Part shown: positions 5,776 through 61,130 of the stretch, one piece after another
Numbering within the stretch: position 1 is the stretch's first letter
Layout of the letters: each line of letters begins with the position of its first letter
Assembly: GCA_947034885.2 (NCBI GenBank)
Contig: OX344753.2
Location: 20,832,001 to 20,896,000, forward strand
DNA: 64,000 nt
Reading direction: 5' to 3'
Source of the DNA: Thuidium tamariscinum
Lineage: Eukaryota; Streptophyta; Bryopsida; Hypnales; Thuidiaceae
Translations under genes and position numbers: made by a program
Notes under the pieces: model-generated
Seen by the model: only the letters and a program-made list of their open reading frames with translations
Database searches by the model: none
Told to the model about the DNA's origin: nothing

Positions 5776-6592
5776 TCAAAGCACATTTCAATCTATAGGA
5801 TAATCTCAAGAATTGAGTGTAAGGACATTTTATATTGCCTATATAGATAAACATTTGGCTCTCATGGATTTTTCATTTTGTTCTAGATATTTAATTCTAA
5901 CTATAATCTTGAGATTAAATTTTTTTTTTGTATCTCAACAAAAAACTAGACAGTCATAAAGTCAATCACCTTCATCTTCATTTTGGCTTAAGTATTCATA
6001 CCTTAAACCCTAAATGCCCAAGGCACCAAAGTGTGGTGTTTGCAAAACTTTGAAGTTAAGTAAAACCTAATCAAGTTGCTATTTTGAATAGTTTGTATTT
6101 TTAGAGAATTATTTTCAAAGTCTACTTTAAGCATCAAAAATCCAATTGTGAAAATCATTGACTATGATTTTTCTATTCAAGATTTTGTGCAAGGGTACCT
6201 ATTGCTTCTCTAGTGTTGAGAGCTCTTGGAAATGAGCCTCAAATACACTAGACCTTGGAGAAAAAATCACATTAGAAATTCTTTAAAAAAAATTGTAGAG
6301 TAGATTTTGAGAAGCCATAAATTGATTAGAGTCATGCATGGTAGGTTCTTTTCACCTCATATTTTTTTGTTACCAACATTTTAAATTTGACTAGTGAAAA
6401 AAGGATTGAAATCTTTCTATGAGGCTCAATGCATAGGTTTTGTTTCATAGTATCCCAATTCATGGAAGAAAAGACATTTGAAGTTTTCTTGAATTAAAAA
6501 GTTATTTTTATTTTTATAGTTATTGTAGCAAAAGCATAAGGTACACTAGTCAATACTTTAAATTAGAATGCTTTTGTTTTCTTTGTTATCTT
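5776..6592. other. AT-rich spacer
   Basis: No gene or clear repeat is seen here. The stretch from 4813 to 5545 is similar: AT-rich, without coding signal. Confidence 0.5.
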
Positions 6593-6876
6593 AAGTTATT
6601 TTAGATTGTACATTTGTTGATTATATTCTCAATACCATTAGAATGCCCTCAACATAAATTAAAGAATTACAAAATCACTTTTACTTTTATCTTGGCAATG
6701 GCATATGGCACACTATACTAATTGTTTTGCCATTAAGTTATTTTAGATTGTACATTTGTTGATTATATTCTCAATACCATTAGAATGCCCTTGGTATAAA
6801 TTAAAGAATTACAAAATTATTTTTACTTTTATCTTGGCAATGGCATATGGCACACTATACTAATTGTTATGCCATT
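6593..6876. repeat. 142-bp direct tandem duplication (two copies)
   Basis: Units 6593-6734 and 6735-6876 match almost base for base (TTAGATTGTACATTTGTTG at 6601 and 6743; CATATGGCACACTATAC near the end of each). The few differences suggest a recent duplication. Confidence 0.85.
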
Positions 6877-6887
6877 GCCATTGTTAA

Positions 6888-7067
6888 ACACACCTCAAAA
6901 AGTTTGATGCATTTCTGAAAATCACCCGGAGTATATTTTAAGAAAAAAGATAACTCAAAATTTTTTAAAAACCTCGAACACACCTCAAAAAGTTTGATGC
7001 ATTTCTGAAAATCACCCGGAGTATATTTTAAGAAAAAAGATAACTGAAATTTTTTTTAAAACCACGA
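6888..7067. repeat. 90-bp direct tandem duplication next to the tRNA gene
   Basis: Units 6888-6977 and 6978-7067 are nearly identical (CACCTCAAAAAGTTTGATGC at 6891 and 6981). The second unit ends six bases before the tRNA 3' end and contains the T-run on the minus strand that would stop RNA polymerase III. Confidence 0.85.
7058..7061 (-). terminator. RNA polymerase III terminator of tRNA-Ala
   Basis: Four T residues on the minus strand, 12 bases past the tRNA 3' end. This is the first T4 run after the gene. It lies in the second 90-bp repeat unit. Confidence 0.6.
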
Positions 7068-7073
7068 ACAAAT

Positions 7074-7146
7074 TGGAGACGCCGGGTATCGATCCCGGTA
7101 CCTCTCGCATGCAAAGCGAGCGCTCTTCCATTTGAGCTACACCCCC
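7074..7146 (-). tRNA. tRNA-Ala (anticodon TGC)
   Basis: 73 bases, read on the minus strand from GGGGGTGTAGCTCAAATGG. The acceptor stem pairs GGGGGTG with CGTCTCC using three G-U pairs. The anticodon arm is CTCGC-TTTGCAT-GCGAG, the T arm has GGGATCGATACCC, and the discriminator is A. No intron and no encoded CCA, as in nuclear eukaryotic genes. A-box (TAGCTCAAATGG) and B-box (GATCGATACCC) are intact. It decodes GCA alanine codons. Confidence 0.92.
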
Positions 7147-19800: not shown

Positions 19801-21329
19801 GTGTAAAGTGAAGTTTATGGTCATTTTGAATAGTGGACAATTCTATTTATAAATTAAAGGAGGTGGCAACCTTACAAGTGGTCTATTTTGGGTACACTTC
19901 TTATTGTTTTAACTTCTTCTCTAAGACATATTTCAATACTACTAGTAAGTGTGATTTCTTGATATGGCACCAAATGGATTTTTGCATCACCTACATAACT
20001 CTTTTACTTAGCACCCTATGCCTAGCATCTTTCAAAATTTGTAACTAAACCACAATGCACCCAAAAATTACAAAAACCACTTGCATTTTGATTCATTATC
20101 CTTCACCATTGTGCAAAAAATGTTATTTCATTTTCTAAAGCATATAAGTCATTTTGAAGAGCTTCCTGGTGCAACTGTAGGTGTAAGGTAAGAGGTCCTA
20201 TAATGGACCATCTAAGGGCTGAAACAGAATTTCAGGGAGGTAAAACCTCTAGAAATTTTTTTCAGTAAATTTTTCTTGAAAAACAAGTAGAATTGACATC
20301 TAACCCAAGTCGTTTCATATTTTTCTGAGCTTTTTTGAATTAGTTATCAAATTTTGAAGTTGAAAAGGCATAGGGCTGTAAAATGGTGCCCTAGCTACAA
20401 TGTACACTGTCAGTACATTGCTGAAGGCTATGAAAAAGCAACATGTACAGCTACTGTACATTTAAGATAGGGCACCATTTTAGAACCCGTTCCATTTAAG
20501 AACCCTCTACCTTAGTTACCATAATACTCGTGATAGCAAAATGTTTGGAAGTCACAACCTGATCATTGAACTTCCTGATTCCACACTACCTCAAAACGTG
20601 TCGCTCTTTCATTTTATGAAATAGCCACAAAATAAAGGGTGAGTGAATAAAGTCACACGACTTATCCTTGCACATGGGGTTTGTGGAATGATTGCAGCAA
20701 GAATGAATGGAATTTGGGAGCCAAAACTCTGCAATTGCTGTCTAAAGTCCACAGACTGAATTAGAAAAATAGAAAATAAAACAAAAATGTAAAAGTTGTT
20801 GAGGAGCTGACAGGAGTTGAAACCGGAATCTCATACATCGTCATCCTTCATTACAGCTTGGATGAAAGTCATCTAATTTGTAGTGATACTTCATCAAGTT
20901 TTTGTCCTATCTGTCGGTTGGATTTGGTGTTACTAGAGTTTATATTTTTCTAAAATTACAAATGTGGAAGTTTGTCAAGCCAAAAATTGCAATGATTTTA
21001 GTTCAAAATTGGGTTTGCAAAAATGAGGTCATAGATTGAAAGAACAAAAAAATTTCAAAAAATCAGCATATGAAGAGACCCTCATTTAAAATCCATTCCA
21101 ACAAGTTTCACTCAGAAAATGATAATATTTTGCTTGTAATTGAATTCAGAAGACATTCAGAATTTTCTTTTTCAAAATTTATAAATAAAAATTGATGATA
21201 GCATTGGTGAATCTAACTGTACAGATTGAATCTGAAATTCATAATCTACAACTTTTATTTGGACATCAAGTCCAAAATATTCCAACAAATAATACTTTAT
21301 AATGATTTTTCCAAAGTAGCCAATTTTGG
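16862..21329. mobile_element. 4.5-kb DNA element with terminal inverted repeats of ~480 bp
   Basis: About 16862-17360 is the diverged reverse complement of about 20850-21329. Shared blocks include AATTACAAGCAAAATATTATC (one base trimmed: AATTACAAGCAAAATATTAT), TGTTGGAATGGATT, TTTTTGCAAA, and AGATAGGACAA followed by GATGACTTTC. Outer ends read GAATTGACGTTTTGGGAAAAATCAT and AAATTGGCTACTTTGG. Long TIRs suggest a Mutator-like or foldback-type element. The 3.5-kb interior has no recognisable transposase, so it is non-autonomous or decayed, and it holds a family A MITE (20183-20515). No convincing target duplication was found; ends are good to about 10 bases. Confidence 0.6.
20183..20515 (-). mobile_element. 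MITE family A, copy 1 (inverted)
   Basis: About 333 bases with 25-base terminal inverted repeats: TAAGGTAAGAGGTCC at the left, CCCTCTACCTTA at the right. TA at both ends suggests a TA target. An inner inverted repeat (AAATGGTGCCCT ... AGGGCACCATTT) lies toward the right end. Related copies: 31243-31545, 48297-48626, 49251-49570. It sits inside the 4.5-kb long-TIR element, so it is younger. Confidence 0.7.
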
Positions 21330-28050: not shown

Positions 28051-28817
28051 ACTATCAGAGAGCGTGACACCCTAATCTTGACGGCCACGATGTATCGGAA
28101 TCTGACGGTGATGCTTCGTTCGATTGTCGTAAGGTAATATGAAGTCAGCGTCGTTGGATGATCTTTTGGATATCTTCAGTTTCATTTGTTCCAACTGGAT
28201 GATCTTTTGCGATGGTGAAGCAACCCATTTATGAATTGAGCATAACTCACCTAGAGTGCGGATATGTTGAAGGGAAATGTTTCCCCATGCACACAAATAG
28301 ATTAAAAAGGATTTCATTTTTTTTCAAAGTTTATTTTCCAAAACAAAATTATTATAAATTTATTAGCTAATGATTCTATTTGTTCAAAACTAGTCATGCA
28401 GGTCATCATATTTCTAACCAAAGGTTGATGGTAAGATTAATAGTGCTCCATCCTAGCAATAGAAGATTGTAGCACCAATTGAGAGTGCTCATTGCCAAAT
28501 GCCACCTTACCAAATGAGAGTCTTGTTTTCAATTATGATGTGTCATAATTAATTGGAAATAGACTACCTTACCTTGCAAAAATCGAAGGCAAGTGATTAA
28601 GAATGGGTTGACTCCCATACTTTTATATATAAACTAGCATGCCTTTTGTTATTGCTAGAATAATTAATATGTTGTTTACAATTGCTACAATAGTGATGAC
28701 TAAGCCTTTTCTAAATTTTTTTTTATATCCAATTTTTGATTCTTTAAATATGAAAAATAATTGGTAGGATTCCTTGGTATCTAGATGGTCTTTTGAAATG
28801 TCTTGTTAAGTTGATGA
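28051..28817. other. RPL13 promoter and AT-rich spacer
   Basis: The first few hundred bases should include the RPL13 promoter. The rest is AT-rich and no gene is seen. The stretch 29562-30576 between two transposons is likewise empty. Confidence 0.4.
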
Positions 28818-29561
28818 GGGTCATTGCAAGAAACATTATCCATTTTTTGTAGCATTTTGGAATTGGATACTTTTTTCTTTGGGCGTACTATTTTATTTGA
28901 AAAACAATTTAAGATATATATAAAAATATGTTTAATGTATACACCTTAAAGAAGAAGGTACCTAATGAAGGAAAAGCTTGGGAAAATTCTCTAAGTAGGA
29001 GAATTAGAAAAGTGCAAAATCTCATGAAAATGGGCATATTTACATTTTTATTTAATTTGTAAAAAATAGAAAAAGTTATTTTTCTTAATTTTAAAAATTA
29101 GGTATTCAGGAAGAGTTGATGGTGATAAGATTTCACCAAAAAAATAATCTTAGCACCATGATTAATGTTCAGAAATTGCATCAATGAGAGTATCGTTTGC
29201 ACACATATGGAAGACATAAAATAATGTATTTTTTGATGTCCTTGGATAGGAATATGCTTTCCTACTATGCAAATGGCCTATGAAAATTTCAACTTTGGAT
29301 CATTAAATTTGGCAACTCCTAATGTAGTAAAAACCCTAAACCTTAGTTTGTGATAAATTAACAAAAATCAATTTTAAATATTAAATAATTATTTTTAATT
29401 TCTAAAAAATAAGGGATTTGAAAACCATCAAATTAGAAAGGTCCATTAATTATTTCATATTTCATATTCTAGGATCTTTTAATTCAAAAGTTATAGCAAA
29501 AATAAAAGAACATCACTCAAATTGTGATGGAAAATAGGACTAGTGTTTCTTGCAATCACCC
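28818..29561. mobile_element. TIR element family C, copy 1 (744 bp)
   Basis: Starts GGGTCATTGCAAGAAACA and ends TGTTTCTTGCAATCACCC, inverted copies of each other. Flanks read ATGA on both sides, a possible 4-base target duplication. Family C copies are 28818-29561, 52245-53004, 58806-59887 (enlarged by an insertion) and a truncated one near 61599. Non-coding. Confidence 0.7.
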
Positions 29562-30576
29562 ATGATCTTTGAAGTTTGTTCATAATTTTATTGATGACTT
29601 TTACACTAGTATCTCTCTATATATGAGTAAATTATCTCCAATATATGAGATTATTTTGTTATATTTTAAGTTGTAATAAAGTTTTACTCATCAAGGAGGT
29701 TCACATCATCATGCAAGGCAAGAAACTTAAGCTACAATGTTTTTATTTGTCCTATATCCTCTCAAGTCCTGAATGACTATTTCAAATTTCATCATTTTTT
29801 TATGTATCTTTTTTAACCATGATAAATTAGATTTGTAATCATTTGAACATCTCTACATTCATTTAAAATGCATTTGATTGCCACAGATTTTCATTTCTTA
29901 AAATTACATTTAAGAATTCTTTTTAGATATCAAGATTCTAAAAACCATCAAATCAATCATTGAAGTGTGGAAAAATGCAAAGTGCTAGATAATTTTGAAT
30001 TCTAATTTGTTGCCATCAACTTTAGCCCCTTAAAAACCAAGGGTAGTTTAGATTTCCAAATTGCGAAGATATATTATGACATGCAACTTAGAATAATAGT
30101 TTGAAGATGGCTTTTAAATAATAGTTGTAAACTATTATCCATAGATCTTATCAATATAGTTAGATCAAATAGTGCATAATTTGATATTTTTCAATAAAAT
30201 ATGAAGGCAAAAATTGAAAATCAATTATAGATTGGATATTTATTTATTTCATAGTAAATGTTTTTCCTCAAGTTCAAAGCGTTATGTTCTAATTATAGTA
30301 TTTTATGCTTACTAGTGATTTCAAAATGGGTTTAAGGTTTTTAGCCAAATGTTCATTTTAAGATGATTTTTAAAAATTAACATTGAAGACATGAAGAAAT
30401 TAAATAACATCTCAACAAAATTTAGATAATTTTGGGATCACTACTTTTATAGAATGAAGGAAGAAACAAAAATTTTAGTCGTAGCAACTTGCATATAAAA
30501 CATGGCCAACTAAGAATATACCAACAATGAGGCTTTTTGACCATGAAGAAGAAACACTCCCAATAATCTTAGAATT

Positions 30577-31116
30577 AAAGTAGGCCCCCTAAAAGTACCA
30601 TTGACTTCAAAGTACCATCTACAATCTGCATACATTTTCAAAATCAGTTATGTACCTATATGGAAAAAACATTAGGAGGGATTTGAGGACTCCAAAGGGC
30701 TGTTTCGGGATTGTTCCCAAAACTAGTTTGGGGAACAGCTGGCCACTATCAGGCCAGCATTTCTCAAAAAAAAAAAAATTAGGTCCTGAAATATGAAAAA
30801 AAGTCCAAATTTTTTTTAATGATGTGGCAGTCGCTCAACCACGTAGGATTCCTACAAAATTGCGTTCCCACGGCAGATTACGCGATTTCGGGCTGTGGGA
30901 ACTCACGAGCTCCTAGAGCCCTCAAATCTCTCCGAATGTGTTTTTCAAATCTAACTTTCTTACTTTATAACTTTTGTATATAGAACCCAAATGTTGCATT
31001 CTTTAGTGTGTTGGAACCTCTTTTCACTTGCCATCAAGAAAATAAAAAATTTCAACAGTCTAATAATAGTGATCATGTACAATAGCAATTAGTGGTGCTT
31101 TTGGGCTACCTACCTT
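30577..31116 (-). mobile_element. MITE family D, interrupted copy
   Basis: Outer ends AAAGTAGGCCCCCTAAAAGT and ACTTTTAGGTG-like TTTTGGGCTACCTACCTT. The interior at about 30950-31060 is the reverse complement of the interior of the intact copy at 47779-48052 (GGCAAGTGAAAAG / GGCAAGTAAAAG, CATTTGG, CAAAAGTTAT). A family B MITE (30670-30938) is inserted in it. Confidence 0.6.
30670..30938. mobile_element. MITE family B, copy nested in family D
   Basis: Terminal inverted repeats CATTAGGAGGGATTTGAGG and the complement of CATTCGGAGAGATTTGAGG. The interior has the family B blocks CTGTTTCGGGATTGTTCCC and GTGGCAGTCGCTCAACCACGT. About 269 bases, non-coding. Confidence 0.7.
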
Positions 31117-31242: not shown

Positions 31243-31545
31243 TATAAGGTAGAAAGCTCAAACTCCAACCGGGCATTAAAATGAACATGACTTAGAGGTA
31301 CATTTTGTTTTCTTCAATGTACCAAATCTACACATTTCAAGAGATGGTCACTTTTGACGACGACAAATGACCACTTCAAAATTTTGTAATTAATTCCACC
31401 AAGCTTGAAAAATAATGAAACAATTTGGGTTAGATGCTTATTCCACTTGTCTTTCAAAGAAAATTTACTAAAAAACACTTCGAGATGTTTTACCTCTCCA
31501 AAATTTAGTTCCATAAATTTGCATTTATAGGATAATATTACACCT
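31243..31545 (+). mobile_element. MITE family A, copy 2 (diverged)
   Basis: Begins TATAAGGTAGAAAGCTC, has the family block GCATTAAAATG, and shares a long central block with 49251-49570 (TTAGATG, then TTCCACTTGTCTTTCAA, then AAAATTTACT). The right end is worn and approximate. Confidence 0.6.
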
Positions 31546-31590
31546 CGAAGGTAACTTATTGGATTACATTTAATTTGAAAATGGGAATAT

Positions 31591-31901
31591 CATAAGAGGA
31601 TTTTCAGCTGGTTTACAAGACTGCGAGTTTCCAAATGCTAGGAACGCTGGAAACGCAGTGCTGATGTGGTCGAGCAACTGCCACATCAGAAAATACTAAT
31701 TAATTAATTAATTTTTTTTAAAATTAAAATTTTTTTTAATCATTTTCTTTCTTTTACAAACATTCGGAAATTCTTTGAATTTTTTCTTTTTTTTTCAAAA
31801 TTCAAAAATTCAGACCAATAAGGAGCTAGTCTACAACATTGGGAACAGTTTCTGGGAACACCCCTGAAACAATCTTCTTGGGGGCCAGAAATCCTCTTAT
31901 G
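31591..31901. mobile_element. MITE family B (311 bp)
   Basis: Ends CATAAGAGGATTTTCAG and the complement CATAAGAGGATTTCTGG. Interior blocks match the copy at 59073-59433 in inverted order (CAAATGCTAGGAACGC, GCTGATGTGGTCGAGC, TTCTGGGAACACCCCTGAAAC). Non-coding, with an AT-rich centre. Confidence 0.75.
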
Positions 31902-33334
31902 TGAGATGAAATTTGAGGCCTTTGGAAGATTGTCAGTTCTCAAATTGTAGGAATGTTGAATTATAGGAATCCTAAGTACACTACAAGAAGAAGGGTGTTT
32001 TTCAGTAAGACCGACTAGTACAAAATTATTGAAAGGTCTTCTGAATTACTGGAAGGTCAATGTGGACATGCACTTCTAGTAAAGCCGACTGGAAGATGCG
32101 CTGATCAGTCGCCTTCTTTGTCTCATTCCTCCACAAATGATTCCCTTCCTCAAACTGTTTGCGGTCTCTAAAGCACAGAGTGAGCCAAGCAAGGAGAAGG
32201 CTGTCTAGCATAGCCAACACAGAGGCAAAGAGATAGGAGCTTGCACTAGCACTTTAATTTCTTCTCTCGTGTTTGGTGCAGGCCGTGAGTCCGGAGGGTT
32301 GATTTGTTGCATCGGATTTGTCGGCCATGGCCGCCACAAACATGGCATGCTCTACGCTTCCAGGACCTCCTTCTCGGCTCCGACGTCCATTGCACACCGT
32401 TGCCTGAGCTTCCATCTTCGTCATAGCTAATGTTAATAGCACTCATTGCCATTCCTTTTCGCCTTTCACATCTGCTCAACCTCAATCTCTTTTTTTGCTT
32501 CTCTTTTCCTTGCGTTTGTCAAGATTTTTTGAACCAACTAAGCTACGCCATAGTCCAGCCGAAGCCAAGCCAACTTCAATCGTCATTTGAGGTAAGTTGG
32601 TTTCTTATCTACTTTGTTGGTTTATTTTTTGTTTCTAGCTTAGGAGTTCTTGTTTGTTTACTTTTTATTATTTATACACGACAAGAGAAAGGGTGATTTT
32701 AAGGATGCATTTTCAATATCATATTACTGGAATGCATCCCGCCTTGCCAGAAAGTAAGAGGACCTGAAGGGAATCAGTCAAGCGAAAGCTCTTTTTCCTA
32801 ATTGGTCACCTTTGTGCCTGTTGGTCCCTTCAAGTAGTAAGTTGCTTAGACGCTCAGGGAATGGGGTTTGTAAGAAGTGGTTTTAGGGTTTCAAGAAGCA
32901 GTTCTATTTTGGCACTACACGTAGCTGACTATTTGAATGGCCTCTGTGCAGGTTATTGTGGGATTTAAGGTTTCAAAGGAGGTTGTAATAGAGAGGATTT
33001 AGGTGTAGCGCGCAACGAGGATGCCACAACGAACGTCAAAAACCTCAACTCTCAGGTGAGATACTCACGGATGCATGTGTTCCGTGCTTCCTTCCTTCCC
33101 CCTTTGTCACTGACCACTAGTAGAAAATTATGTCCAAATCAACAAAAAATCAACAAAAACTTGTTGATTTGGGTACTGCATTGACCGTTTTTACAATTTT
33201 TTGTTGATTTGGACACGAGTTAACAAAATGGCTAACAAATTTTTGTTGATTTGAGCACTAGTGAACAAAATGGTTTAACAAATTTTTGTTCATTTGAATA
33301 GTGCAACAACCAAATCAACACATTTTTGTTGACT

Positions 33335-33785
33335 GTTTTTGGAGTGTTTGTGGACTGTTTTGGGGCTGTTTTGGGGTTGTTTTTGGGTTGTTTGTGGACT
33401 GTTTTGGGGCTGTTTTTGGAGTGTTTTTGGGTTGTTTGTGGACCGTTTTGGGGCTATTTTTGGAGTGTTTTTGGGCTGTTTTTGGAATGTTTTTGGAGTG
33501 TTTTCAGAATGTTTTTGGAATGTTTTTGAAATGTTCACGAAAAGTTTTTGAAATGTTTTTAGAATGTTGTTGAAATGTTTATGGAAAGTTTTTGAAATGT
33601 TTTTGGAATCTTTTTGGAATGATTTTGGAATGTTTTTGAAATGTTTATGGAAAGTTCTTGATATGTTTTTGGAATCTTTTTAGAATGATTTTGGAATGTT
33701 CTTGAAATGTTTACGAAAATTCTTGAAATGTTTTTGGAATCTTTTTAGAATGTTTTTGGATTGGTTTTGGAATTGTTTAGAACGT
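33335..33785. repeat. Degenerate 11-12-bp minisatellite
   Basis: Tandem variants of TGTTTTTGGAA / TGTTTTGGGGC run for about 450 bases, with higher-order blocks such as TTTGTGGACTGTTTTGGGGC repeated. Open frames here in all three + frames and one - frame are low-complexity (Phe/Gly/Cys/Trp-rich) by-products. Confidence 0.8.
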
Positions 33786-35256
33786 TTCAACAATTATGAA
33801 TTTAGAGTTCAAATTGTATTTTATTTTCAATTAGATTTTGAATTTGATTGGAGTTCTAATTACATTGAGAATGTAATTCAACTTTGATTCACATAATTTG
33901 ATTATATCAAATTTTTCAATCTTAAAATAATCAAATTTGAGTAGTTCAAAATTCAAATTGAACTACTAAAAAAATTTACTCAAATTTGAAGTATTAACCT
34001 CTATACTCTTTCATATGTTAAGGCCTATAATTGCTTTTAAATATTAGTCTTTAAAGCAAGGTTGATATCTTCATTTCTATTTATTTTTTCAACAAAATTA
34101 ACTAGATGATCTTGCTTGTACTTAATTTGACCTATTAATCCCTCTTGAAATTGTGAAATAACAAATTTTAGCAATTACAAGATCATGATGTTCGGATTTC
34201 AAAAAAGATAGTGTTCAATTCATCCCAAATGAATACATTTCATTTTTCCAACATTTTATACAAAAATTAATGTATATATCAATTCTACAATTTGCAACTT
34301 CCTACCATATGCTGGAAAAATATGTTAGAGAATATGTATTAGAAATTGCAACAAATAATATTTCATATTCATGCTTGGAAAAAATAGTAAGTTGACATGA
34401 ATTGAGAATTATTTAAAATATTCAATGAAAAGAATTGTAGTTATGAAACTAAAGATTTCCAAACCCAATGGTTGGAATGTACTAATGTACATGCCATAGT
34501 AAAGAATTTTCATCCTATTTTTCAAATTTTTTTGGAAAAATATTCAAAATTGCATTTACTAAAGAAATTTGAAGATTACTTTAGTGTAGAGATTCCACTT
34601 TGAATTGCAAAGTGAAATTCCTCATAAGTTTCACCTCCCTAATCTATATAGAACGATTTGAAACTTTTCACAAGATTAATATTTTAGAAAATCAATTTCA
34701 AATTCCTATTTATTTAAAAATTACATTCACATCTACCTAGTTTAGATGCACGCATAGCTCGAAAACCTATACACCATACAACAACTTTTTTATGATTTAA
34801 TCAAAAGTTATAAAAATTGTGAATCCTTCAAACTATCCCTGGATTACATGTTGTGTAATAATTTTAAGGGAAAAAAACCGGAAATTCAATTTCTAAATAC
34901 ATAACCAAAAACATTAGCTATATTGTCAAAAAAGGCAACTTTGTTCTCTAGGGGTCTAAATTCTAATTTTAAGTTTTTTAAATTATTCAAATTCTAAGTT
35001 CTTAAATATTTAAATTCTACATTAAGAATTTTCAAATTCTAATTTAGAACTATTGAAACTCTATGTTCTAAATTACAAAAACCTTAAATAAGAATTGTGA
35101 CCAAATCATCTCCTAGTAAAATATTTGCCAAATATTCATAATATCTTTAATTAAATTTTTATCACTAAAATTTCATGTGGGAAAAGTTTAAACCACCAAG
35201 TTTCACATTTATGTGCAATTAGAATATTTTTTATTAACTTACTAATTCACAATTCA

Positions 35257-35632
35257 GTGTTTTTCAACTCAGCAGACTTTGGAGGCTGTTTTCGCATAGT
35301 AAAGTACTTTTTTTCGGAAAACTTTGGACTAAGAAAAGTTGTTAAATCAAGTTAACTTTCATCTCCAACAATCCGTTTGTGATTTGGAGTCTCCAATTGA
35401 AAGTTATGGGCAAAATTCAGAGAGGGGTTGGAATGAAATTTTATTTTGACATTTGTAAACACTCTCTCTGAATTTTGCCCATAACTTTCAATTGGAGACT
35501 CCAAATCACAAACGGATTGTTGGAGATGAAATTTAACTTGATTTAACAACTTTTCTTAGTTCAAAGTTTTCCGAAAAAAAGTACTTTACTATGCGAAAAC
35601 AGCCTCCAAAGTCTGCTGAGTTGAAAAAACAC
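35257..35632. repeat. Near-perfect inverted repeat, 170-bp arms, 37-bp loop
   Basis: Arms 35257-35425 and 35463-35632 are reverse complements with only a few mismatches and one length change in an oligo-T run. Blocks include GCAGACTTTGGAGGCTG, TTTTCGCATAGTAAAGTAC and CCAACAATCCGTTTGTG. A transcript would fold into a long hairpin. It could be a foldback transposon inside the nested CACTA element. Near-identity of the arms implies youth or gene conversion. Confidence 0.9.
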
Positions 35633-35694
35633 ATCACAAAAGATTGGAAAAAGCAAATAAGTAGTAGTTTGTTCCACTTTATGTCAAGTGTACT

Positions 35695-35872
35695 TGTACA
35701 TGGTGCAATGGTTTGAACTTTGCACCCCTAAGCAAGGGGTGCAAGGTTCGGACCCCCTTGCACTCACGCCCGTGTGGCGGGGTTGCCACCTGGGCGGCCT
35801 GCCTGCGTGGTGGGCTATCGCGTGGCGGCCTTTTATTGGCCTATTTTGTTTTTATAATTTGAAAAAAAAATT
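35695..35872 (+). mobile_element. tRNA-derived SINE-like unit
   Basis: A tRNA-like head starts near 35698 with an A-box-like TGGTGCAATGG, an extended anticodon-type hairpin (GCACCCC-TAAGCAA-GGGGTGC) and a B-box-like GGTTCGGACCC. A GC-rich body (to about 35835) follows, unlike the AT-rich surroundings, then a short AT stretch and an A-run (35863-35871). The order pol III head, body, A-rich tail fits a SINE. Only one copy is in the window and no flanking duplication is obvious. Confidence 0.5.
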
Positions 35873-36121
35873 CAGAAATGATAAAAAAATTAACAAATAT
35901 TTGTTGAAATTGTTGTCAAAATCAACAAGTTTTAGTTGAAATTTTGTCCAAATCAACAAGTTTTTGAACAAGTTTTTGTTGAATTTTGTCCAAATCAACA
36001 AAAAATCAACAAAAACTTGTTGGACAATGTCCAAATCAACACGTCTAAATTAACAAAAAATTAAATTGTCCAAATCAACACTTTTTGGTCAATTTGGACG
36101 CTGATTTTTCTACTAGTGGAC

Positions 36122-36786
36122 CAAACCCTTTTTTTTTTTACTATTTCCTATAAAAAATTTGTTGTGCAAGCTTTCTCTGCAACTGTGCGACATGAAACAA
36201 TTAGAAGAATGCCAAGAATTCCATGGCCAGTGAGGTAAGGTAACCTAATGGTGGAGTAACTGTACTACTGGCGTCAGATGGGGTTGATAACTTTGGAAAC
36301 AAGGACCTAGGTGGAGCTTGTTCGGTCTTTGCAGTGTCTTTCCTGGAGGAAAATTAGTGTGCTTGAAGGCGATTTTGCCAGTGAAAAGTTAAGCTCTATG
36401 TGCAGTGAATTTTGTGAGTTCGTGTTCTGCGAGTTTGTGCCCCTTATTGTGCACGGTAACCTCTAAAGAATATGTTTTTTTATACAGGTTGGCGGCGTCC
36501 GTGTTTTTGAAGAGCTCGTTCTAAAATTTAAATTACGGTCGATTTTTTGTCTGTGATGTTAGATAGCGTAAACGTACATTATTTGGAGATTTGGAAGCTG
36601 TGATGTGTTAATTTGACCTTGAGAACTTATCAAAAATTTTGACGTTCATTTAAAAACGTTTTTTCTGTACGATTTCTTTGAATGAGTATCTCGTCGCTAT
36701 TTGGGAAGGCCAAGTTAACTTATGGGTTCAGGATTTTCTTTACAATGCCTTAAAATTGTCCAAGTATAGGGGAGCTGAATGGACAA
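36122..36786 (+). other. CACTA payload, unidentified
   Basis: Less AT-rich sequence between the nested CACTA element and the UBA2 fragment. It has a splice-donor-like GAG|GTAAGG near 36235 and could be 5' flank or leader captured with UBA2. Nothing codes clearly. Confidence 0.35.
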
Positions 36787-37717
36787 ATGGATGTCAACGA
36801 TGTTGAGGTATGTCTTACACTTCCTCTTGGGAGTTTTTTGTTTCTCCATTTTCGTTGTACACAAATCGATTTGAGCTGTAATAGAATCGTCTACTGGTGA
36901 AGTCATTGATTGGTTGTTGTCTAAAAACAGAGAGAGAAGGTGCTTATGGTGGGCGCTGGGGGCATCGGTTGTGAGCTGTTGAAGGTGCTAGTATTGACCG
37001 GCTTTAAGCACATTCACTTGGTCAGTTTTGTTGTGTGCATTCGGGCGGTTTCCTCTACTCATTTTAAGTTATTCGAGTATAGAATTGCTGGATGAACCGA
37101 GTTTGTGTATTCATGTCAAGATAAAATATTTCTAAGAAAGAAACGTAACATTCATTTGGACTGCAATTTCACTCCTACAGATTGATATGGATACCATAGA
37201 GGTGAGCAACCTCAACAAGCCATGTTGGGCAGTCTAAAGCCAAGGTACGTCGCAGTTCTTTGTGAAATATTTGTCGCTCTCGTTTAGATCTAGCCACGAT
37301 TTGGTGGTGAAATCTGAAAGCTTAAGAGGTGATCGGAGATATTGTTTCTAATTTGGACGACATTTTCTATCCCAGGTGGCCCGTGAAGTAGTATTTAAGT
37401 TTCGTCCTGGAGTGGAGATAGTTGCTCATCACGAAATGTGAAAAATCAAGAGTTTGACATTGACTTTTTTAAGCAGTTTAGTGTGGTTTTAAATGGTCTG
37501 GACAATTTGGAGGCATGGCGCCATGTGAACCGCATGTACTTGGCTGCTGGAGTTCCTTTGGTGGAAGTGGCACTACTGGTTACCTTGGTCAGGTAGGCAT
37601 TTTCTCATTTTTCTATATCTAGCAGCCCAGATTCTGATGAAAGTTTCTTGCTGTTTTCCTTAGATTCTTACACAAGAGTATGTTTCTCTTTGTAGGTTAC
37701 TGTACGCATTAATAGAG
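36787..37717 (+). pseudogene. UBA2: Captured fragment of SUMO-activating enzyme subunit 2 (UBA2/SAE2)
   Basis: Pieces with intron-like gaps: 36787-36807 (MDVNDVE, then GTATGT), 36931-37020 ([15 protein letters not shown]), 37181-37244 (IDMDTIEVSNLNK), 37376-37592 ([38 protein letters not shown]) and 37696-37717 (VTVRIN). This covers the ATP-binding adenylation part of UBA2, including GxGxxG and the DMD loop. It is broken: about 20 bases are lost after NLNK (the Q-F-L-F-R segment), and single-base losses occur at the HHE/NVKN junction and in the VESGTTG block. The C-terminal two-thirds, with the catalytic cysteine domain, is absent. Retained introns show capture from genomic DNA. UBA2 with SAE1 activates SUMO; this copy cannot. 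Confidence 0.88.
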
Positions 37718-37770
37718 TTGGTCTCTTCGATTATTCAACGTTGAAAGATTTTTCAGGGTTTACAGCCATG

Positions 37771-38129
37771 GCATCATCGAGAGCGGTATGTTACCTGCCT
37801 GTATTGCGTATCTCTCTCGTGAAGGAATTTCCTTGTTCCTGAATCATGGTATTCCATCTTTTTGAACAACTTGACTAGAGTATTGTTGACATGCAAATTA
37901 TTTGCAAAATTCCTTTGTTTGCATCGCAATGTTGTTGGACAACACTTGACTACTTGAGACCTTGCTCAATAGACCCATGTCTTTCCTGTCCTACTATCTG
38001 CACAAAATATTGTATAGGAGTCGGCAACGTGGATACTTGCAGCTCAACCTGCTTCTTGGGAAGTGGGCAGAAGAAACATCACCAATTTGGATGAGAAGCG
38101 GCTACAGGAACTTGTTGATTTGTTGGAAG
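37771..38129 (+). pseudogene. SDHAF2: Captured fragment of SDH assembly factor 2 (SDHAF2/SDH5)
   Basis: After an acceptor-like TATAG, 38018-38129 encodes SRQRGYLQLNLLLGKWAEE and then, one base out of frame, NITNLDEKRLQELVDLLE. This matches the conserved RQRG...LxLxLGxW and L-x-D-L-L-E stretch of the mitochondrial SDHAF2 family, which helps attach FAD to the SDHA subunit. A short upstream piece (37771-37785, MASSRA then GTATG) may be its first exon, which is uncertain. The DLWKWL motif expected next is missing, so the fragment is cut off there. Confidence 0.7.
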
Positions 38130-38175
38130 GGGTGATTATACCCTGTGTATTCAATTCAATAGTGGTTGGCTCCAG

Positions 38176-38372
38176 GATGCTATAAAATTGTACAAGGAAG
38201 CATTGTAGATGCATCCATAGTGTCCTTCTTTAGTTTGACTAGGACTTGGGTTATGTCATGTGCGCCTTGAATAGTTTATGAAAGCGCAGCAGGCCTTTGA
38301 TCTTGTGCTACAGCTCGAAGGGAATAACGTCAAAGCTTTGATTGCTTTTAGGGTTTTGGACCTAATCGCAGG
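38176..38372 (+). pseudogene. CTR9: Captured fragment of PAF1-complex TPR protein CTR9
   Basis: After an acceptor-like CCAG, one frame reads DAIKLYKEAL, MHP, CPSLV, LGLGLCHVRL, then FMKAQQAFDLVLQLEGNNVK, ALIAFRVLDLIA. It follows the CTR9 TPR region (YxxxLxxxPxCPxxVRLGxGLCxYKLGxxxKAxQAFxRVLQL...NVxAL). Four in-frame stops interrupt it; at least three fit CAG-to-TAG or CGA-to-TGA changes, as from deamination of methylated cytosines. No insertion or deletion is seen over about 65 codons, so decay here is by substitution. Confidence 0.75.
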
Positions 38373-38961
38373 CTAGGAGTAGGGGGTTTGTATTACAAAG
38401 CCATCTCCTGGAGAGTTGAAGACGCCTAGAGATTTCATTTAGCCTTCACCAACTAGAAATTTTAAAAGTCATATCTCTTTTTGTTGAAAAGACATGTTGT
38501 ACCCATTCAATAAGGTATATTAATGCTAGTCCTAGATACACGATTTTGTTGAAAAGACGAGACCTTTCAATATGTGTTTTTTTGACTGAAAATTGCAATT
38601 AAAACACTACTCAAATGTCCTTAAAAGTCATGTTTTGGACTTTGAGTATTGTCCTTTAATGCGCGTCCTAGACACAACATTTTAAGTAAAATTTACTTAA
38701 AAGACTTGCACTTTAAGTATGCATTTTTTGACTGAAAAACATTCTTAAAACACCCCTTCCTCTTGTAGTGGTAGTTGAGAGATTGCCACATTATTAATTT
38801 ATTTATTTTTGAATTTTTTTGGACTTTTTTTCACATTTTAGGATCACCCAAATTCAATTTTTTTTTGGTAAATGCTCACCTAACAATGGCTAGTGATATC
38901 AGGAACAGTTTTGGGAACAAATTTGAAACAGTCCTCTGGAGGCTTCAAATTTCATATAATG

Positions 38962-48296: not shown

Positions 48297-48626
48297 TAAG
48301 GGAGGTGGCTCGAAAACCGCTCAGGCTCGAAAACTGCTCACCTTCTAAAATGTATATTTTTGGTACATGATGCTTTTTGATCTTTACAGTAATGTACAAA
48401 CAGTGAACATTTGAAGGGGTGGGCGGTTTTGGAGCCCTATGCCATATTGACTTCAAAAATTCATAACTAACTCTACAGAGCTCCAAAAAATATGAAATGA
48501 CTTGGGCTAGATGCCTATTCAAGTTGTCTTTCAAGAAAAATTCACTGGAAAATATTTCAAGATGTTTGACCTGCCCAAAATTCTGTTCCAACCCTTAGAT
48601 GGGCGGTTTATGGACCTCCTCCCTTC
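48297..48626 (+). mobile_element. MITE family A, copy 3 (330 bp)
   Basis: Left CTAAGGGAGGTGGCTCG, right complement GAAGGGAGGAGGTCC. The interior matches the other A copies (GGAGCCCTATGCC, GATGCCTATTC, TTGTCTTTCAAG, CCCTTAGATGG). Confidence 0.7.
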
Positions 48627-49250: not shown

Positions 49251-49570
49251 TATAAGGTAGGAGGTCTTTAAATGGAGCGAGCATTAAAATGGAGCCCTAT
49301 CTTAAATGTAGACAGTTTGTACATGTTTCTTTTTCATAGCCTTCAGTGGTGTAAAAACTGTGTACATTTTAGGCAATGCTCCATTTTAGAGCCGTATGCC
49401 ACTTCAACTTCAAAATTTGATAACTAATTCCACAAAGCTCCAAAAAGTATGAAACAAATTGGATTAGATGTCAATTCTACTTGTCTTTCAAGGAAAATTT
49501 GCTGAAAAATATTTCTAGAAGTTTTACTTCTCTGAAATTCAGTTTCAGCCCTTAGATGGTCCATACCTTA
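49251..49570 (+). mobile_element. MITE family A, copy 4 (320 bp)
   Basis: Left TATAAGGTAGGAGG, right TCCATACCTTAAT. It is the clear reverse complement of 20183-20515 over most of its length (CCCTATCTTAAATGTA, TGTACATGTT, TCTACTTGTCTTTCAAGG). TA at the ends suggests a TA target. Confidence 0.75.
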
Positions 49571-54886: not shown

Positions 54887-57800
54887 ATGGATAACCAAGC
54901 TTCTTCATCAGCAACAAGGCTTCATGAAGGTACTTATCCTACCATTTAAAGCCATTTTTCTATTTAATTTGCACTACTAGTTCTACTTTCACAAATATAT
55001 AATTTTGTGTATTCATTTTTTTAAAGAACATGTGAGTACCATCCATTGTCAAGGAATTAATAGTAATGATTGTTGGTACATGAATGCCACTACCTGTAGA
55101 TATACTACAATGTTGATATGATATTCTTCTTCTTGAAATCTAAAGAATATCAACACAATGTAATGAATGTGTGTAGATGGCACTACAAGTCTTGAGAGGG
55201 AGTTGGATATCTACTCAAAACTTTTGGTGGCTTGTAATCAACGTGTGCAAATGATACATGCACCAATGTTCAACAACGAGCAATGTCAATATCTTCTTGA
55301 TAAACTCAATGAGATCATTGAAAGTTCAAGTGAATTTATGAAGACATCAAGTGAGGCACTCCTTGGATCATGTGCACCTCTAGAATTGGAAAAACATCTC
55401 TTCAGCTTCAAGCTACTCCTTGTATTGGCTACTGAAATTGAAAGATTTATTGAAGGGTGTAGCCAAGATGCATGGGTACCAATCGCAATGACATTGACAA
55501 ATGTCTTGGAGTTTGTTTCATCCATGGCATTTCATTTGGAGTTGTGTCAAGTTGCCTTGTCTCAAAAAAGTGAAGGGTCTAGAGGTCTAACCTTGGATCA
55601 AGTAGTAGACAAGAGCAAGGAGGTCTATGACATTGTCAAAACAAAGGCTTCTATGGACAAAGAAGCTCTTTTGAAGAAAATTTCATTGGCTTTGCCTTCG
55701 TTGCATGGAGATGAGAGGGATTTGGCAAGTTATTTGCTTCAAAGACTTTTGAGGGTTGCCCCAAGTCCAAACATTCCTTTACCAGAATCAAAATGGGATG
55801 TATCTCAATATTTGGCTTTTTGGAGAGGTACTTCTCAAAAGGTCAAAGAAGGGGTGTCTCTTGGAAGAGGGGCTTCAGCTACTGTATACAAAGCCATGTG
55901 GTTGGGAATGGAAGTTGCATTGAAGGTTTTTTATGGAACAAATAACCCGGAGTTCAAAAAAGAAGTTGATATCCTTATAGGATTGTACCATCCCAACATT
56001 ACATCCATGTTTTGTTACGCACAAGAGAGGCAAAAGTGTTCAATTTTCATGGAGTTGATGGATGGAGACCTCCATAGATTGATGGAAAAGAAGCTCGAAG
56101 TGAATCATGATTCTCCCCCTTTCAATATTTGGGAAGCAATTGACTTGATGCACCAAATAGCAGAAGGGGGAAAGTACCTTCATGAGCGAGGAATTGTGCA
56201 TAGGGACTTGAAGTCCATGAACATTCTTGTTAAAAGTGTGAAGACTCCATGGATGGATTTGGAATATATTCAAGCGAAGGTGGCGGACTTTAATGTATCC
56301 AAATTCAAGAAAAACAACATCACAAACACAACGCTTACACCGAATGTTGGAAGTAGCAATTGGATGGCACCTGAGATAATTCGACTGCAAAGTACAAGCA
56401 ATGAAATGAATGTTGGAACAAGCAATCAATCACTACCAAAGCATCCTTACAAATGTGATATTTACAGCTTTGCAATGGTGTGCTATGAAATATTGACTGG
56501 AAAATTGCCTTTTGGAGACATTGACAATCCAAAGAAGATGAAGGTAATGATATTGGACGGTGCTCGTCCCAAATTACCCACTCAATGTCCTTCTCAGCTA
56601 AGAGCTTTGATTGAAAAATGTTGGAATCCTGAGCCAAAAAGTCGTCCAACTTTTGATGACATTTGTCAAGAGTTGAAATATGTGAAGTATGTACTTATGA
56701 CAGGTTAGTATATGGACTTCCAAGGCTTTGAATTTCTCAATGTATGATATGTAGATATGTGGTTATAGTTTTTATTGTTGCTAACATGAAAGCTTGATAT
56801 CTATATTAAGTGCTATTAAAACTTTAATGTTTATAATTTGAATGTAGCATATTGTCATGTATGATAGTATTGTTTGTTGTTTAATGACATAGAAAATTGT
56901 CATATATAACACTGCAATTTTAAGTCCAAATGGTTATGTCTTTTGGGAGCTTTGTAGAATGAAACCATTGGGAAATCTTGAAAATAACTTCAATACTATG
57001 GAAATTGCAGATATCTCTTCCGCATCCAAGGTATGTTTGCATCTCACTAACAAAAAATTTAAGATTCTATAGAAATTGTTTGTACATTTCAAAAATTATA
57101 CAGGGTTTTTTTTGTACTTTGATTAAAAAAAATAATGCTCTTCATGTACTTTAGATTTGGATACAAATTCTTGCTAAATAAATCATAGGTGCACCATTGA
57201 ACTTAATACTTTTGTTTAGAAAATTATTATTATATAGTTTTTAATTAAAATTGTAGATTCAAGATTCTTTCCAAAAACAATGAGTAGAAAATGGTTTTGA
57301 CTATACATTGTAGATTAAAGATAATGGATTGGAGGACTTTCACAATATTGTTCAAAGATTGTTACAATTGAGGTTACTACTTTGAGGAATTGTGGGTAAT
57401 TCAAAAAGAATGATGGCTAATCTCTAGAAAATATATAGATTTATTGATGACTTGAGTAAGGGTGATGGATTTCAACCTAATGGTGCTTTGACATTGTAGA
57501 CTTACAAGGATGTGAATCCAATGATGAGCATGTACGCGGATGCGTCGGAGAATTTTGATGAGACAATTCAGATTGAGCCTAATGATGCTACAATATTGCA
57601 GCAACGTGTCACAATCAAGAGCACTGTGAAAAAATATGCAAATGCATTAGAGGACTTGAACAGGGCTATTGAACTTGAGCCCAATGATGTTGCGACATTG
57701 AAGATTCGTGGGCAAGCTAAGATGTTGATGGGCGAGTATGCAGATGCATTGGAGGACTTGAACAAGGCTAATGAATTTGAGCCTAATAATGCTATTACAC

Positions 57801-58249
57801 TAATGAGACTTGCAGCAGTCAAGTATGCAATGAAGATGCTTAGAGATGCATTGGAGGATTTGAACAAAGCCAATGAACTTGAACCCAACAATGTTGCAAT
57901 ATTAAAGATTCGTGGGGCAGTTAAGGATTCAATGGGTGAATATGTGGATGCACTAGAGGACTTGAATAAGGCTCATGAATTTGAGCCTAATGATGCTATA
58001 ATATTGCAACAACGTGGCAGAATCAAGAGCATAGTTGAAAAACATGCAGATGCACTAGAGGACTTGAACAAGGCTATCGAACTTGAGCCCAATGATATTG
58101 TAACATTGAAGATTCGTGCACAAGTTAATATGTTGATGGGTGAATATGTGGATGTACTAGAGGACTTGAATAAGGCTCATGAACTTGAGCCTAATGATGC
58201 TACAATATTAAGGTGGCGTGGAGAAGTTGTGCTGAAAATGTTAGATTAA
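54887..58249 (+). CDS. TKL-type protein kinase with C-terminal TPR array
   Basis: Exons 54887-54929, 55177-56703, 57011-57030 and 57500-58249 keep frame; 779 residues. Residues about 15-210 are predicted helical and could be a four-helix-bundle regulatory domain. The kinase domain (about 240-520) has P-loop GRGASATV (244-251), VALK lysine 264, HRDLKSMN (356-363), a DFG site that reads DFN (385-387), and APE (412-414). Catalytic Asp, Asn and metal-binding Asp are kept, so activity is possible despite Gly to Asn. About seven TPR units of 34 residues follow (ALEDLNKA-ELEPN). The TAA at 58247 interrupts the array: two more TPR units stay in frame to 58438. In plants such helical-kinase proteins include immune and cell-death regulators; a role here is inference. 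The 20-base exon 3 is supported by splice sites and phase only. Confidence 0.85.
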
Positions 58250-58715: not shown

Positions 58716-58805
58716 TTATCAAGTATTCATTGTTTACTTTTTGGTTCATATAGTTAATTGTAAATGATTGTTTATTGAATTGTGCTTGAAATTGGACATG
58801 ATGTT

Positions 58806-59887
58806 GGGTGATTGCAAGAAAGAATGGTCCTATTTGACATCACAATTTAAATGCTAGAGTTGTTATTAGCTATAACTTTTAGAGCATGAAGCTAATTGAC
58901 TTCAAATTCTTATCGAAGATGACCAATTTGATAGTAATGAGATTCTTTATTTTTTGAAAATATCCATAAAAACATTTTCTAACTAAATTTCAATTTGGCT
59001 AATTTATCAGACTCTAGGGTCTAGGGTTTTTTAGTATTGTAGATCACCTTAAATTTATGATGTAGACTTTAACATAAGAGAATTTTTGGGCCCCCAGAAG
59101 ACTGTTTCAGGGGTGTTCCCCGAAATTGTTTCCACTGCTGCAGACCAGCCCCTTGTTGGTCTGAATTTTTGAATTTTGAAAAAAAAAATTAAATTTTTTT
59201 TCCCAAAAACTTCAAAATGTACTAAAGAGAAAAAAAAATGATTTAAAAAAATAATTTTTTTTTCAAAAAAATATTTAATAAATATTTAATAATTAATTAA
59301 AATTAATCAAAATTTAGTATTTTTTGACATGGCAGTCGCTTGACCACATCAGCATCGCATTCCTAGAGTTCCCAATGCGTTCCCAGCATTTGGGAACTCA
59401 CAATCTTGTACAACAACTGAAAATCTTCTTATGATTTGTGTAGGCTATTCCTACACTAGATATGCATGTGCCTACCAAAAAGATATTAAAAAAGCATTAT
59501 TTTATATTTTCTACGTTTATGCAAACAAGGCTTTTTGCAAGTGCTATTTTGAACTTTGGAAATGGTTTCAAGATCATTCTTTTGGTGAAATCTCTTTTCC
59601 ATGAAGTCTTACACAATTGACAATTATTAGATTCTTTTAAAAAAATTCCCTATTTTTTACTAATCAAAACACCAAAGTACCAATTTTCATGAAATTTTAC
59701 ATTTTTCTAGTTCACCTAGTTAGAAAATTTTCCTGTGCTTTTCCTTCTTAGGATACCTTCTTAAAAGAGGTGTATATATGCAAATATTTTTCAAAAATTG
59801 TTTTTCTAATTTTAAAGTACTCCCTAAAAAATTATGAATATTGTAGAAAACATTACAAAAACCAATTGGTCTTTCTTGCAATGACCC
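58806..59887. mobile_element. TIR element family C, copy 3, with nested MITE
   Basis: Left GGGTGATTGCAAGAAAG, right complement GGGTCATTGCAAGAAAGACC. Length is 1082 bases, or about 721 without the family B MITE at 59073-59433, in line with the other C copies (744 and 760). Non-coding. Confidence 0.75.
59073..59433. mobile_element. MITE family B nested in family C
   Basis: Left CATAAGAGAATTTTTGGGC, right complement CATAAGAAGATTTTCAG. Interior blocks GACTGTTTCAGGGGTGTTCCC and GGCAGTCGCTTGACCACATC are shared with 30670-30938 and, inverted, with 31591-31901. The centre is A/T-only. Confidence 0.75.
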
Positions 59888-61130
59888 TATCATTTAAAAA
59901 ATCAAGCATTGCTATTAATATTTAGTTGATAGATTTTTGTCAATTGTTAAGTGATTGACTTAAATAATTAATGTTTTTGTATGAGTCTGATATTTTATCA
60001 TTTGATATTGAAAAACTTAATGTATTGTATGAAAAGATTCATATTTAATTATGGTATAGGAATTCACAATGAAATATTCAATAATTTGCTTTCAATATTT
60101 TTGTACTTTTTAGAAGTGTAGATGTTCAACTATTCAAACATAATAACAATATTTTGTTGATACTATTGTTTCTATATATCTTGATGGTGGTTTTAATGTT
60201 GAAGTACCTTATATATAATGGTGATACAAATTTAATTTAGAATTGGATAGTTTCCCTTACATATAATTTAAAGTTGTCATGTTTGATAAAAAATCAAGTC
60301 AGGCTGGGTGTCATATTGGACTTTTGACATTGCATGTTGTATTAAACTAGTATCAAATTTGTATAATATTTTTGTTGAATAGATTTTAGGTTTTTGAATT
60401 TTTTTTAATCCTATGGTTGTATGTTGTTGGCTATCAATAGTATGTAAAAAGTCTCAAGACAAGAAACTATAAGTGGGTGAAAGGAAAACCATGGGGTGGG
60501 CATGTGCAAGAAGTGAAAGGTTGCTTGTAGGTAGATGAATGCAAGTGGGCAAAGTAATGAATGTTTATAATTGAAGAAAAGGTTGTAGGTGTATCAAATG
60601 GGCACTTATAGGCGAGCTAAGGAATGAATGCATGTAGGTGAAGGGGCCTATAGGTGGATGAAAGACAACTATAGGAAGAAATAAATCCAATCTCCTTCAC
60701 AAAGGCAAAAATTGCAAAAATTAGGTGAAAACATGATAAGGATGAACCTTTGCAAATTGTTAATAATTTAAAAGAAATATTTACTTTAATCTTTGTTATT
60801 TATTTATTTATTTATTTAAATATCAAAGTGACAAATAATACATGATTTATTTACAAAGAATTTTTTTTAATTGCAAAATAAGAAAGATGGAAGTCCTTCT
60901 TGAAATCTTTATTTATTATTTATTATTTTTAAAGTCAGCATGACAAATAAATATGCCATATTCTACTATTTTTGGACTTTAGGGTTAAATTTGGACTTTG
61001 TCATGTTACTAACAAAAGATTTTTTTGATATAGTTAGGGTTTTAGAGACGACAATGCCTTTGAAAGTAGAAAGAAGAATATTGAATAGAGCATGTTCATA
61101 TACAAAAAGATGCCAAGAAAACATTTGAAT
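59888..61130. other. AT-rich spacer
   Basis: No gene is seen. A purine-rich stretch at 60470-60690 has loosely repeated TAGGTG-GAATGAATG motifs, and there is a (TTTA)n run at 60799-60820. Confidence 0.4.

Follow-up and report, generated by a model that had tools for sequence, protein, structure and literature searches.

How did pieces of three unrelated host genes come to lie side by side between positions 31979 and 38770 of a 64-kb stretch of DNA, probably from a plant (the window)? The segment is best explained as a non-autonomous Pack-CACTA, a CACTA transposon that captured pieces of UBA2, CTR9 and probably SDHAF2, was mobilised in trans, decayed and received a nested insertion, and that is now most likely a silenced passenger. 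We give this reading a probability of about 0.88. Gene capture by a CACTA element had been proposed in an earlier note on this DNA. It is well supported and was borne out by a related empty site, by the introns kept in the UBA2 piece and by the lack of a transposase in 37/37 open reading frames (ORFs).

The outer element, its ends and its insertion site are defined by these features:

31979-38770, plus strand: outer non-autonomous CACTA element, 6,792 bp with the nested element included
31979-32005, plus strand: left terminal inverted repeat of the outer element, from the alignment of the two ends
38744-38770, plus strand: right terminal inverted repeat of the outer element, from the same alignment
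31976-31978, unstranded: left GTA target site duplication of the outer element, read in the sequence and from the related empty site
38771-38773, unstranded: right GTA target site duplication of the outer element, read in the sequence
30816-30857, minus strand: core of the related empty site, where the flanking repeat recurs uninterrupted by the element (ungapped match; the gapped alignment covers about 30632-30930)

The terminal inverted repeats begin CACTA/CACTG and are bordered by a 3-bp duplication, GTA on both sides, as in the CACTA superfamily (CMC). When the ends at 31979 and 38770 were aligned, 22/24 columns were identical, with one mismatch and one gap. The termini had been called exact; their positions and the GTA duplication stand, but the ends are imperfect repeats. 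Searched for with as many as 3 mismatches, the 23-base left end has a single site in the window, and a match was found in 0/100 shuffles. Its first 17 bases matched 15 stretches in 15 viral contigs, to which no weight is given, and a version longer than 17 bases had no match in bacterial and archaeal genomes. A 13-bp word, a single one and not an array, is common to both subterminal regions, taken as 300 bases apiece without the terminal repeats; a shared 12-mer arose in 4/2000 single-base shuffles.

The outer element is flanked by an old repeat, of which the window holds a second copy, diverged and inverted, close by. The two flanks, joined with one GTA, match 30816-30857 on the minus strand at 36/42 bases, ungapped and straight through the joint. 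As a control, 20 shuffles of the query scored 22-26 (one strand, window positions 1-30000). The gapped alignment of the flanks to the empty-site copy spans some 300 bases. Because the flanks match the empty site through the joint, the outer element is one insertion with these borders, and the related empty site is the strongest support for them. A DNA self-comparison of the window found no second copy of the payload. Other old repeat blocks at 28812-29562, 31589-31902 and 58805-59892 lie in opposite orientation and are 69-73% alike, and one of them adjoins the outer element on the left.

The captured payload occupies the right part of the element:

36488-36807, plus strand: possible exon D, ending in a putative UBA2 start (ATG at 36787, MDVNDVE) outside the similarity
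36931-37020, plus strand: UBA2 exon 2 fragment (ThiF, 1.6e-8)
37181-37244, plus strand: UBA2 exon 3 fragment with a deletion and a frameshift
37376-37592, plus strand: UBA2 exon 4 fragment with two frameshifts (7e-10 to SUMO-activating enzyme subunit 2)
37696-37710, plus strand: start of UBA2 exon 5; similarity stops at 37710
38004-38129, plus strand: SDHAF2 (Sdh5) fragment with one frameshift; similarity begins near 38004
38155-38372, plus strand: CTR9 fragment with in-frame stops at 38206, 38218, 38236 and 38272

Similarity searches assign the first piece firmly to UBA2. Read through its frameshifts, it matches SUMO-activating enzyme subunit 2 (9dqb_B, which we take to be the human protein) with E=6e-47 and 82/124 identical residues. 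Other E1 enzymes score far more weakly, at 4.8e-25 for the NEDD8 E1 and 8.7e-22 or weaker for the ubiquitin E1s. Single open frames of the piece match Pfam ThiF at 8.7e-9, above the cut-off, and at 3e-5, below it. The first of its three frameshifts coincides with a loss of about 6 codons relative to 9dqb_B. All three introns with similarity on both sides have GT-AG borders; the putative first intron that precedes 36931 has GT and AG as well, the exon proposed upstream of it (36787-36807) being itself putative. The retention of these introns shows that the piece was copied as DNA and not from mRNA.

The third piece is likewise firmly placed by similarity, in this case to CTR9. It aligns to residues 174-241 of the CTR9 homolog 9eh1_Q with E 1.9e-14 as a whole, and its best single stretch reaches 3.9e-9 (39.5 bits, 27/64 residues identical). 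The top row of that search was an engineered repeat protein whose score is the sum of many weak repeats, with a best of 8.6 bits among the matches listed. The middle piece is likely, though not proven, to derive from SDHAF2. An uninterrupted frame (37950-38132) has a match to Pfam Sdh5 over residues 19-43 (1.7e-4), starting at about 38004; two SDHAF2 frames joined (38018-38129) give 7.4e-5 and 23 bits, and a shorter single-frame piece 0.13. Its sole match among solved structures was 1puz, a 'conserved hypothetical protein', with E=0.18.

All three pieces are on the plus strand. These data agree with the payload described earlier (UBA2 with introns, SDHAF2 and CTR9 in one orientation), with the SDHAF2 assignment only likely. 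The spacing of 20-60 bases given with it roughly fits the 14-25 bp between SDHAF2 and CTR9, but about 290 bp separate the end of UBA2 at 37710 from SDHAF2 at about 38004. Host gene sequence, firm for UBA2 and CTR9 and likely for SDHAF2, is thus enclosed between terminal inverted repeats, as in a Pack-CACTA or other Pack-TYPE element.

Such elements are also non-autonomous. A Pfam comparison (E up to 0.1) of the 37 stop-to-stop ORFs of at least 55 aa that overlap the outer element matched no transposase domain in 37/37, remnants shorter than 55 aa lying outside the scan. The credible matches, ThiF and Sdh5, are the payload itself. Weak matches below the cut-off, such as EST1 (0.0087) and Mlp (0.0069), were considered as transposase remnants and are not credible.

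Each captured piece is disrupted, UBA2 by 3 frameshifts, SDHAF2 by 1 frameshift and CTR9 by 4 stops. An origin of the CTR9 stops in C-to-T changes at methylated sites was considered, and base composition gives it no support. The CpG observed/expected ratio of the captured exons is 0.54, lower than 4/6 and higher than 2/6 gene segments of the window (range 0.27-0.94). Their CAG/CTG ratio of 1.08 is higher than that of 3/6 segments and lower than that of the other 3/6 (range 0.37-1.62). Without consistent depletion in either measure relative to the window genes, there is no clear sign of methylation-driven decay.

A second CACTA element, overlooked in the earlier note, sits inside the outer one:

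33115-36118, plus strand: nested CACTA element, 3,004 bp, with perfect 13-bp ends CACTAGTAGAAAA
33112-33114, unstranded: left GAC target site duplication of the nested element, read in the sequence
36119-36121, unstranded: right GAC target site duplication of the nested element, read in the sequence
35260-35628, unstranded: inverted repeat in the nested element, arms 35260-35424 and 35464-35628

It makes up 44% of the span of the outer element. The 13-mer CACTAGTAGAAAA has two exact matches in the window, which are the two ends of the nested element. Only exact matches count, because 5 sites were found with 2 mismatches allowed against 2.8 expected. Its position inside the outer element means that the nested element arrived later, and the outer element was about 3.8 kb long before this insertion. 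The inverted repeat has 165-nt arms that are 99% complementary and 39 nt apart, and it is predicted to fold into a strong hairpin (-296 kcal/mol over 411 nt). The near identity of the arms suggests a recent origin, and the region, if transcribed, would yield a long hairpin RNA. Short TGTTTTTGGA-type units are arrayed at 33322-33779 within the nested element. A TEX13 zinc ribbon match there (0.0026, 18 bits against a 17-bit cut-off, 16 residues) was taken as chance.

Put together, these features point to a sequence of events. The element would have picked up the pieces, in the form of genomic DNA, when CACTA excision and repair went wrong: either neighbouring elements were excised, or gap repair filled in patches copied from other loci. 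The available text of PMC13317346 and PMC8903248 describes a model of Pack-CACTA formation in which aberrant excision of neighbouring insertions gives a hybrid element enclosing the intervening DNA. Capture probably took more than one step: three unrelated genes would call for several rounds, or for several templates copied in a single gap repair. The finished element may then have been moved to its present site by transposase supplied in trans. Later the pieces would have decayed through frameshifts and stops, and the second CACTA element landed inside. Today the element is most likely nothing beyond a passenger, its silencing being assumed.

Several points weigh against this explanation. The capture steps left no direct trace at the locus, so the mechanism is an inference. 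The evidence is confined to the 64-kb window and does not extend to the parent genes or to any other copies of the element. The 5' part, with possible exons A-D, was not traced to a source, and the silencing is itself an assumption. The SDHAF2 match lies under the curated Pfam cut-off (21.9 bits against 27). Taken alone, the final 40 left-flank bases gave a weak gapped score against the empty-site region that 9/300 shuffles equalled; the empty-site claim is borne by the ungapped test across the joint and not by this one.

Among the alternatives, the one that survives best is that another element, a Helitron or a Pack-MULE, built the three-gene chimera and then inserted into a CACTA element, which we consider unlikely. 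In maize Helitrons, captured pieces lie close together in one transcriptional orientation, and the three pieces here do the same. Two CTRR-T sites are present on the plus strand of 38100-38770, the 3' range that was scanned. The site at 38526 lies beyond the payload, after a weak predicted stem (-4.0 kcal/mol), but the better site at 38362 (predicted stem -6.4 kcal/mol) sits within the CTR9 similarity. Among the 25 longest of 99 inverted repeats, six frame the payload, namely the CACTA ends and five others; those five have their left arm in the later nested element and therefore cannot be the ends of an older carrier. That the outer element itself is a Helitron is ruled out by its terminal inverted repeats and target duplication.

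A proposal that we regard as slightly less probable still adds a host and a function to the Pack-CACTA. In it the host is a moss or other non-seed plant, the element is the first multi-gene Pack-CACTA there, and the captured UBA2 5' region still drives a spliced chimeric RNA, the source of small RNAs directed at the three parent genes. An antisense role had also been suggested for a transcript, and it finds no support: the pieces are co-oriented, and transcription from the left would give all of them in the sense direction. An antisense transcript would require a promoter at the right end of the element.

A spliced chimeric RNA from the Pack-CACTA that encodes none of the three proteins is possible. 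Besides exon D, its upstream part would draw on exons chosen by eye:

32282-32591, plus strand: possible non-coding exon A, consensus splice sites chosen by eye
32952-33055, plus strand: possible non-coding exon B, chosen by eye
36171-36234, plus strand: possible non-coding exon C, chosen by eye

The ORFs that overlap possible exon A have no Pfam match. A spliced model that used the by-eye exons A-C and gave a 111-codon chimeric frame was withdrawn, as its splice site at 38018 falls within the Sdh5 similarity; once that site fell, 37768-37785 was without support as a first SDHAF2 exon. The least probable alternative, a working chimeric gene whose spliced RNA encodes a novel protein or regulates the parent genes, could draw on the intact UBA2 splice sites, which would allow a captured exon to be spliced into RNA, and on the transcription and splicing of captured exons in soybean (in the available text of PMC1947982), but it is very improbable given frameshifts or stops in all three pieces, exons A-D chosen by eye and a 3.0-kb nested insertion within the predicted transcript.

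The rest of the window holds genes and repeats. When 8 of its ORFs were compared with Pfam, 4 matched, as a DEAD helicase, a glycosyltransferase, a protein kinase and TPR repeats. We take these four to resemble plant nuclear genes, the helicase presumably being like MTR4. The protein kinase ORF (513 codons, 55167-56708) is followed by the TPR-repeat ORF at 57500-58249. Dispersed repeat copies at 20203-20514, 31373-31513, 48450-48590 and 49253-49564 are 74-84% alike and occur in both orientations. The only RNA family found in the window is a tRNA-Ala (TGC) gene at 7074-7146 on the minus strand, beside short tandem duplications at 6591-7070; it is uninformative about the host lineage.

If the host is a non-seed plant, the Pack-CACTA would extend exon shuffling by CACTA elements beyond the flowering plants; if it is not, the locus is an ordinary example of gene capture. 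A related empty site within the window makes the locus a clean individual example of an insertion followed by decay and a nested insertion. In Sphagnum, CACTA elements are abundant, at 6.8% of the genome in the available text of PMC9946827, and it would not be surprising to meet them in a moss. A literature search that left subscription journals largely uncovered found no element of this kind in non-seed plants in the titles and openings of abstracts that it covered, which is weak evidence of absence. The main text of PMC8903248 has no mention of moss, Physcomitr-, Selaginella or Marchantia, and the available part of the 2026 review PMC13317346 has none of moss, bryophyte, fern, lycophyte or gymnosperm. 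The novelty claimed in the earlier note is unsupported as stated, being preceded, as far as the available texts go, by a soybean CACTA element with five fragments (PMC1947982) and by multi-locus maize Pack-CACTAs (PMC8903248).

Among known systems, Pack-MULEs also enclose intron-containing gene fragments within terminal inverted repeats, but the ends and the 3-bp duplication here are of the CACTA type. Captured exons are also described for TRIM retrotransposons of soybean and Medicago in the available text of PMC4717578. Closer are the Pack-CACTAs of Arabidopsis, rice and maize, which in the available texts of PMC8903248 and PMC13317346 are likewise non-autonomous CACTA elements with captured coding DNA. 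As far as the available text of PMC8903248 goes, maize Pack-TYPE elements often contain more than one locus and Pack-CACTAs hold the most distinct loci, in rice a significant multi-locus share is seen only in Pack-Mariners, and Pack-CACTAs are mostly low-copy in both species. Closest is Tgm-Express1, the soybean CACTA element of the wp allele described in 2007. The available text of PMC1947982 gives it exons and introns of five unrelated host genes, a length of 5.7 kb, a position in an F3H intron, and transcription with alternative splicing to chimeric RNAs. Unlike Tgm-Express1 as described there, with five fragments, an F3H intron and transcription, the element reported here has three identified genes, repeat surroundings, broken pieces and a nested element, and is known from sequence alone. 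Like Tgm-Express1, it is a CACTA element of similar size whose cargo comes from several unrelated host genes and includes both exon and intron sequence.

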